From assembly GCA_029207755.1 (NCBI GenBank), contig JARCOQ010000002.1:13779156-13843155 (forward strand): a stretch of DNA of 64,000 nucleotides, written 5' to 3'. The notes below the pieces were generated by a model, which searched no databases, was not told where the DNA came from, and was given only the letters and a program-made list of their open reading frames with translations. Shown one piece after another: positions 13,474 through 14,440 of this stretch. Each line of letters begins with the position of its first letter. Positions within the stretch are counted from its first letter, which is position 1. Source of the stretch: Chamaea fasciata. Taxonomy: Eukaryota; Chordata; Aves; Passeriformes; Sylviidae. Both the position numbers and the translations under genes were made by a program.

Positions 13474-13692
13474 AGGTCTCAGTGGCCAGAAGCAGCACCA
13501 AGATGCCACCAGTGACCCCAGGATGATGAAGGCAATAAATACAGATTCTGTGATAAGGAACAGCAGGGAGATGGGCACTGCCACATCATTGGGGCCGTCC
13601 TTGCCGGGGCAGCCCACCTCACCACCACCCTGCTGCCGATTGTTGCCGCAGGTGCCCTGGTTGAAGCGCACTTTGGCACTTGAGCAGCAGTA
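13474..13692 (-). pseudogene. SHISA2: SHISA2 cDNA-like fragment
   Basis: About 73 codons of shisa family member 2, a single-pass ER membrane protein that holds back Frizzled and FGF receptors during maturation. What is visible, in order: the end of the cysteine-rich domain (QYCCSSAK), [18 protein letters not shown], then the transmembrane segment containing [13 protein letters not shown] and a short cysteine-containing stop-transfer end before LRP. The KDGP insert before the membrane segment distinguishes SHISA2 from SHISA3. The N-terminal signal peptide and the long cytoplasmic tail are absent. Several conserved positions are changed (for example two cysteines after the membrane segment), so it is not a functional gene. 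It abuts an opposite-strand PORCN fragment at about 13,692 and lies downstream of retroviral gag in the same orientation. It is out of frame with the minus-strand frame that crosses it from gag. Confidence 0.85.
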
Positions 13693-13920
13693 CTGGCTCC
13701 CTGACTGACGTGGTGACAAATTGGAACCTGCCCCTGTCCTGCTGGCTGTACACTTGCGTGTCCCAAACTGCCCAGCACTTGGGCTCCTTGGTCACCATCC
13801 TGGGCACCTATGTGGCCAGCGCCCTGCTGCATGGCCTCAGTTTTTACCTGTCCACTGTCATGCGGTCCCTGGGCTTCATCACCTACACCAAGCACACCTT
13901 GAGGCAGCGCTTGGCTACGA
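13693..13920 (+). pseudogene. PORCN: PORCN cDNA-like fragment (MBOAT core)
   Basis: About 75 uninterrupted codons of porcupine, the ER membrane O-acyltransferase that palmitoleoylates Wnt proteins. Visible matches in order: [14 protein letters not shown], then YVASALLHGLSFYLSTV, then SLGFITYTKHTLRQRLA. The SALLHG block holds the conserved MBOAT histidine. Homology starts abruptly next to the SHISA2 fragment and stops after RLA. The reading frame stays open, but substitutions are present and both ends are missing, so this is a fragment. A multi-exon region read without interruption suggests an RNA-derived copy; intron positions were not checked. It lies antisense to the flanking retroviral gag. 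Confidence 0.85.
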
Positions 13921-13924
13921 CCAT

Positions 13925-14440
13925 AGTCCCGTTCTCTGTATACAACTGGGCAGGCAGCAACAATGGCCAGGTCACCCTCCTTCATTGCGGCTTTTATTTC
14001 AATGCTGCCATTTTGGGCAGGAAGCGAGTCTGCCACTTGTTTGTGGTGAGAGAACTCCATGCTGAGGGCAGCAGCTGCACAGGGATTTCCATCAGGGTAA
14101 GGCAATTCCACAGGGCACAAGTTAATCTTGGGTTGGATATAGGTTTTGGTGGTGCTGAGAGCTCAGGGGAATTGTCTTCTGAAGCTGCAAAATGGCCAGC
14201 TTTTGCACAGTTTTCTTTAATAGCCACCATGATTGCACCCCACATGGCAAGATGCCCACAGGCTTCAGCATAGCTGTCCCTGGTGGTATCAAAAAGTGTC
14301 TGCCCCACCACTTGCCAGGCTTCAGACCAAAGAGGTTCATTAAAGGGAAAATCTTTAACATGATTAGACACCCAGTCGAGCAGGGTGCCAGTTTTGCATC
14401 AGAGTATTAACAGGTTGCTGATGCAGGAGCTGCCGTACCT
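13925..14440 (-). pseudogene. Retroviral gag remnant (matrix to start of capsid)
   Basis: Minus-strand frames resemble the 5' half of a class II retroviral gag. The first frame (14,371 to about 14,140) reads FPFNEPLWSEAWQVVGQ and is matrix-like. A frame change near 14,140 moves it to the frame with LCPVELPYPDGNP. The segment then ends with EGDLAIVAACPVVY, which resembles a linker running into the capsid N terminus. Homology stops near 13,925, where antisense PORCN begins, so most of capsid, nucleocapsid and all downstream genes are missing. No start codon is clear, and an in-frame stop lies near the presumed beginning. Identity as gag rests on pattern recognition, helped by the LTR, primer-site-like motif and splice donor just upstream. 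Confidence 0.62.

Follow-up and report, generated by a model that had tools for sequence, protein, structure and literature searches.

The locus considered here raises the question of how pieces of two host genes, PORCN and SHISA2, came to lie in opposite orientations inside the gag gene of an old endogenous retrovirus, and whether they arrived together. The stretch of DNA that we analyzed, which we call the window, is 64,000 nucleotides long (C2:13779156-13843155) and lies inside a 117-Mb contig of the 1.19-Gb assembly of Chamaea fasciata. The original prediction, made from the letters of the window, was that retroviral gag is joined to an antisense PORCN fragment and a sense SHISA2 fragment, and this arrangement is confirmed by matches to the two parental genes, to human porcupine and to relatives of the gag gene. 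The coordinates of all features are collected in Table 1.

Table 1. Features of the provirus and of its captured host fragments; positions are those of the window
Feature	Position	Strand	Basis or content
5′ LTR	14685..14959	-	about positions 245-519 of query 14441-15600, matching many places in the genome without the gag side
Leader, LTR to gag	14441..14684	-	matched by family members including L011 and L015
5′ gag (matrix and following region)	13914..14440	-	eight gag places elsewhere in the genome; junction alignment; ORFs; Gag_p10 in relatives
gag/PORCN joint of the window copy	13914..13918	.	shared GGC(T) sequence
PORCN cDNA fragment, 216 nt	13698..13913	+ (antisense to virus)	parent exons A-D with GT/AG introns on L010; human PORCN residues ~300-374
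SHISA2/PORCN joint	13693..13700	.	comparison of window, P0001, viral L012 and PORCN
SHISA2 cDNA fragment, ~195 nt	~13497..13692	- (sense to virus)	parent exons with GT/AG intron on L009
SHISA2/gag joint	13488..13500	-	shared TGCTGC; L017 alignment and parental sequence
3′ gag (towards nucleocapsid), resumed past the captured pieces	13210..13496	-	matches L015, L016, L017 and L018
202-aa open frame	13665..14273	+	PORCN sense frame continuing into antisense gag
227-aa open frame	13479..14162	-	gag frame through antisense PORCN and frame-shifted SHISA2

Two spliced host fragments within gag

The window holds a truncated and decayed betaretrovirus-like provirus on the minus strand, in the order LTR, leader, gag. 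When the sequence from 14441 to 15600 was compared with the genome, 50 rows were returned (40 of 75 candidates scored), many of which start at about position 245 of the query and represent the LTR alone; a second LTR copy was not detected within the window. A DNA search of the genome with all 12 candidates scored gave 17 rows, consisting of the window itself, 12 gag rows and four rows in the two parental genes. The 12 gag rows match 13939-14440 at eight other places in the genome with 68-76% identity. The reading frame of the 5′ gag shifts near 14.1 kb, and the gag-sense ORFs at 13994-14398 and 13479-14162 have no Pfam match.

Gag was predicted to stop at about 13,925 and SHISA2 to run on to 13,474, and both limits need to be corrected. 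PORCN similarity ends at about 13913-13916 and gag begins at about 13914-13918, while SHISA2 similarity ends at about 13497, below which the sequence is viral again down to about 13210, a resumption of gag that the earlier reading missed. Of the eight family loci, L015, L016, L017 and L018 match 13210-13500 wholly or in part, and in this 3′ gag the reading frame is interrupted by four stops within 13280-13481. With gag present on both sides, the host pieces lie inside the virus, and they have replaced viral sequence instead of terminating it. In L017 about 650 nt of virus, as estimated from BLAST coordinates, separate the two gag parts, and PORCN and SHISA2 occupy that place in the window; the length of virus lost is an estimate because the corresponding stretches in L015 and L018 are shorter. 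Nothing between 13210 and about 12336, where an unrelated repeat starts, matches the family.

Another repeat has two copies in the window, at 12122-12448 and 38645-38971, which are 69% alike. The second copy begins just past a run of about 33 perfectly repeated GGAGG units (38477-38642), and similar sequence is also present in L012 and L013, away from gag. Elsewhere in the window, two tandem copies of an 88-base unit occupy 60516-60692.

The predicted similarity to both host genes is significant. The plus strand of the window matches human porcupine with an E value of 2.8e-20, and the PORCN piece matches, exon by exon, the genome's own PORCN gene on contig C40, which groups among bird PORCNs in a tree. 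Across the captured stretch this parental gene has four exons, whose intervening introns begin with GT and end with AG, and in the window the exons are joined at 13755/13756, 13832/13833 and 13896/13897 with zero bases gained or lost. The Shisa_N domain (Pfam) is recognized only weakly in the window, with an E value of 0.019 that is under the family cut-off, and the nucleotide match is clear: 82 of 97 and 95 of 119 bases agree with two exons of a gene at C2:45.72 Mb. That gene consists of two exons and a 2.1-kb intron and encodes a full Shisa protein, which we take to be SHISA2; its exons are joined in the window at 13577/13578. Thus, introns are absent exactly at the parental splice sites, three from PORCN and one from SHISA2. 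Both pieces are internal to the coding regions of their parents. PORCN differs from its parent at 38 of 216 bases (24 of 182 outside CpG) and SHISA2 at 36 of 198 (17 of 150 outside CpG).

The eight gag places besides the window make up a family that is betaretrovirus-like (ERVK) by the gag domains of its members. We scanned with Pfam for captured domains 85 of the 131 ORFs of at least 65 aa in seven of these loci, leaving out L014, which is nearly the same as L013. Gag_p10 was found in three and Gag_p24 in two of the 85 ORFs, and two zinc-knuckle models match one L013 ORF. Sixteen families matched at E ≤ 0.1 and, apart from the gag domains, these matches are weak. The best of them, Agd3_C and Rrp40_N (E 0.0016), could not be traced to any ORF when 20 of the 85 were rescanned singly, and none was accepted as a further capture. 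L017 has two LTRs that are 92% alike with about 3 kb between them, too short for a full gene set, and carries an integrase end fragment (IN_DBD_C).

Several observations concern the family members themselves. A sibling provirus, L011 (C2:13592000-13601900), lies about 196 kb from the window copy and has a p24 gag domain and two LTR pieces that are 89% alike over 137 nt. L013 (C29:355500-365400) and L014 (C29:294800-304700) each contain one family provirus and are 99.96% identical over 9.7 kb, about 60 kb apart and in opposite orientation; the pair is a segmental duplication or an assembly duplicate. After matrix, L017 (about 5516-6398) aligns with parts of L012, L015, L016 and L018, whereas the p24 region of L011 does not align with these. 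The scanned ORFs of this segment gave no Pfam gag domain, and the non-capsid middle segment common to these five loci may define a subfamily.

The joint of PORCN and gag in other datasets

Two protein searches were made, which together gave 66 proteins. The search with the PORCN frame gave two matches among 34 candidates, and the two-sequence alignment, in which the best 7995 candidates by shared words were scored, gave at least 65 proteins at E ≤ 1. We inspected 34 of the 66, including all 11 Logan-derived ones, and among these, four (P0001, P0003, P0004, which comprises three contigs, and P0012) show PORCN continuing into the antisense gag that follows it in the window. The joint reads FDACV|Q.WSG...ATIVQF...YNWAGSN, with the variant FDACPWAQSG in P0012. 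The window copy is without about 27 codons, covering the end of PORCN and adjacent gag, that all four proteins have at this place, and its gag-PORCN joint is probably the product of a later deletion. P0003 also retains two short viral stretches that are missing in the window and in P0012.

The captured copies of PORCN are monophyletic, with an ultrafast bootstrap of 96 in a tree of 17 sequences and 80 columns, in which P0004 and P0012 cover the PORCN piece only partly. Branch order within this clade has a support of 72 at best. A placement of the captured PORCN beside the parrot gene, with a support of only 56, was set aside. Of the loci compared, the window is the one nearest to the viral parts of P0001, P0004 and P0012, which fits a virus lineage and an inherited insertion alike. 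The viral part of P0003 scores 97 bits against the PORCN-free provirus L011 and 92 bits against the window, which favors a diversifying, perhaps recombining, virus lineage over a single inherited insertion.

P0001 shares derived PORCN residues with the window, and on the opposite side of its PORCN it has antisense virus-like sequence, not SHISA2. Residues 1-67 of P0001 resemble viral L012 better than any of 500 shuffles, with residues 15-35 at E 8e-5. The last 29 residues before PORCN (39-67) match L012 weakly (E 0.5-1.0; five of 500 shuffles as good). Neither residues 1-67 nor residues 39-67 show likeness to SHISA2 beyond that of shuffles. At the SHISA2/PORCN joint, the window and P0001 have S-L-(A/T), viral L012 has S-L-A and PORCN has S-M-A. 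Because S-L-(A/T) resembles L012 more than PORCN, this joint may hold a few viral bases, a trace of the PORCN-virus joint that P0001 has.

A second PORCN-bearing copy was not found in this genome, either in the DNA search (12 of 12 candidates scored) or in a search with P0004 (13 of 13 scored). Scans of viral contigs with the PORCN-SHISA2 joint, the gag ORF and the PORCN-gag alignment gave nothing, or nothing confirmed, and the same is true of prokaryote genomes scanned with the PORCN-gag alignment. The SHISA2 joints are known from the Chamaea fasciata assembly only, and the protein search with the SHISA2 frame gave none among 14 candidates at E ≤ 0.01. The original prediction had looked to further copies with identical junctions as the sign of a mobile element: the gag-PORCN junction does recur in other datasets, and neither a second copy in this genome nor a SHISA2 junction among those 14 candidates was seen. 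Since the four database proteins are protein records that come without DNA, species or flanks, mobile copies and one inherited insertion are inseparable by these records.

Reading frames across the insert

The reading frames bear on why the pieces were kept. In simulations of neutral change, the PORCN piece is expected to have a mean of 23.0 amino-acid changes and has 25, and the SHISA2 piece is expected to have 21.2 and has 21. We tested the captured protein frames for selection and found none, as the changes match the neutral simulation. Both proteins had been noted to act in the ER on Wnt signaling (PORCN acylates Wnt and SHISA2 retains Frizzled), which was called striking but possibly due to chance. 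Because both pieces are internal coding fragments with neutral amino-acid change, chance is probably the right reading. It is very unlikely that antisense PORCN was kept because LTR-driven transcripts pair with PORCN mRNA and lower Wnt secretion from infected cells, with SHISA2 as a second hit on this pathway, or that the PORCN-sense strand carries a viral antisense gene.

The gag frame has no stop in 138 codons across 13498-13913, whereas the remaining five frames have 5, 5, 5, 1 and 6, and over the insert the gag frame is in phase with the downstream frame of L017 after the joint. Relative to their parents, the captured pieces have 74 substitutions and no indels in 414 nt; gag compared with three relatives has one gap per 4.6-6.3 mismatches, a figure obtained with lenient gap costs and from pairs more distant than the host pieces. 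The parental SHISA2 sequence has no stop in any of its three sense frames, and the antisense PORCN parent is open in the gag frame alone. With the substitutions that were observed, a frame would stay free of stops with a chance of about 0.10. On either side of the insert, the gag frame is interrupted. Because the gag frame is the only open one of six across the insert, the data suggest, but do not prove, that the pieces were tolerated as in-frame filler in gag.

Routes of capture and known systems

We consider it probable that the window contains an old betaretrovirus-like copy that gained two host cDNA fragments successively, by template switching of reverse transcriptase. The ancestral virus would have picked up an internal piece of spliced PORCN mRNA, antisense, within gag, and this PORCN-bearing lineage would have left several diverged descendants. 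In the lineage of the window copy, sense SHISA2 mRNA would then have been taken up beside PORCN, replacing an estimated 500 nt or so of virus by comparison with L017. A sense insert such as SHISA2 would be expected when the growing minus strand switches onto an mRNA. An antisense spliced insert could arise if the plus strand switches to mRNA, or the minus strand to PORCN first-strand cDNA, and the simplest route for PORCN would be from the nascent viral plus strand to a co-packaged PORCN mRNA and back. Short shared sequence is present at the SHISA2-gag joint, where the alignment of L017 to the 3′ gag begins within a TGCTGC stretch common to SHISA2, and at the gag-PORCN joint of the window copy. 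Both pieces may have been tolerated for keeping the gag frame open and not for gene function, and the provirus copy in the window would later have lost its 3′ end and decayed.

The simplest order would be PORCN first and SHISA2 second, because P0001 has PORCN in gag without adjacent SHISA2, yet shares the derived PORCN residues of the window. The order rests on P0001 because the divergence of the pieces does not separate them, SHISA2 being not clearly below PORCN outside CpG, and it is less firm because the P0001 residues beside PORCN match virus weakly. Thus, the predicted capture by template switching stands insofar as two spliced mRNAs were taken up, one of them inverted, whereas a single double capture is probably not what happened. 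Capture of both fragments in one round of reverse transcription, with SHISA2 later lost in the lineage of P0001, would agree with their similar divergence from their parents; we regard it as improbable, since P0001 has virus-like sequence at nearly the same boundary, and loss of SHISA2 would need restoration of that sequence by recombination with another virus.

Another possibility is that there was a single insertion, inherited from an early bird ancestor, so that P0001, P0003, P0004 and P0012 would represent this one locus in other species, with SHISA2 arriving in the lineage of the window after integration, for example as cDNA filling a repaired break. We think this rather unlikely. The finding of only one PORCN-bearing copy in this genome agrees with it, as does the fact that, for three of the four proteins, the viral part has its nearest match in the window, as orthologues would; the deletions in P0003, P0012 and the window are nested and could reflect a species tree. 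However, the viral part of P0003 is no nearer to the window than to provirus L011, and SHISA2 replaces virus and has a few bases in common with gag where the two meet, as template switching would leave. That both fragments are spliced would also be expected of two LINE-type processed pseudogenes that landed independently in an old provirus, but these fragments are internal, end in each other or in gag, replace virus and do not show an mRNA 3′ end with poly-A, and the PORCN joint is common to diverged copies, which makes this explanation highly improbable. An assembly artefact is scarcely credible: nothing was found in its favor, the pieces are about 18% off their parents, the surrounding contig is very long, and the gag-PORCN joint recurs in other datasets.

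Capture of host sequence by endogenous retroviruses, double capture (E26) and LTR-mediated capture are already known. E26 (gag-myb-ets) is an acute transducing avian retrovirus with two host fragments fused to gag, and captured pieces of the E26 type are in sense orientation and yield an oncoprotein. The window is like E26 in having two host fragments with gag. It differs from E26, with its sense pieces and oncoprotein, in that PORCN lies antisense, SHISA2 is read by gag in a frame other than its own and no protein selection was detected; a sense gene coding for its own protein fused to gag, as in acute transducing viruses, is not found in the window. E26 is the subject of two 1983 reports cited in PMC1972398.

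In crocodilians, CrocERV29 (KIT ligand) and CrocERV31 (nectin3) are lineages of endogenous retroviruses in which several copies carry captured host mRNA, and the captures are described as whole ORFs with purifying selection reported (PMC4299795). The window resembles them in having captured host mRNA, perhaps in more than one copy of the element, and differs in that its pieces are short, internal and neutral, with one antisense. In LTR-mediated retroposition, which has been reported in chicken as well, an LTR element switches template to a cellular mRNA at short similarities and takes up part of it (Tan et al. 2016; described in PMC5408686). Partial mRNA uptake and probable template switching at short similarities are shared with the window, which differs in that gag holds pieces of two genes, one of them inverted, and in that the first capture apparently left descendants. 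The maize LTR element Bs1 has copies of three cellular genes (PMC5408686) and is like the window in combining several cellular genes in one LTR element and unlike it in being a plant element. The original prediction knew of no description of an element like that in the window, and among the highest-ranking papers on PORCN with SHISA2, on porcupine or SHISA2 with endogenous retroviruses, including avian ones, and on host-gene capture in general, we found none. Nor did we encounter among these papers an antisense capture that several copies have in common and that was followed by a second one.

Most known cases of host genes captured by retroviruses involve genes on which selection later acted. 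Here, short and apparently meaningless pieces, one of them backwards, seem to have persisted while a virus lineage diversified, and to have accumulated stepwise. The process of capture thereby becomes visible where selection for the captured protein has not filtered the outcome: how an inverted capture comes about, which joints are used, and whether a capture survives chiefly by leaving the gag frame open.
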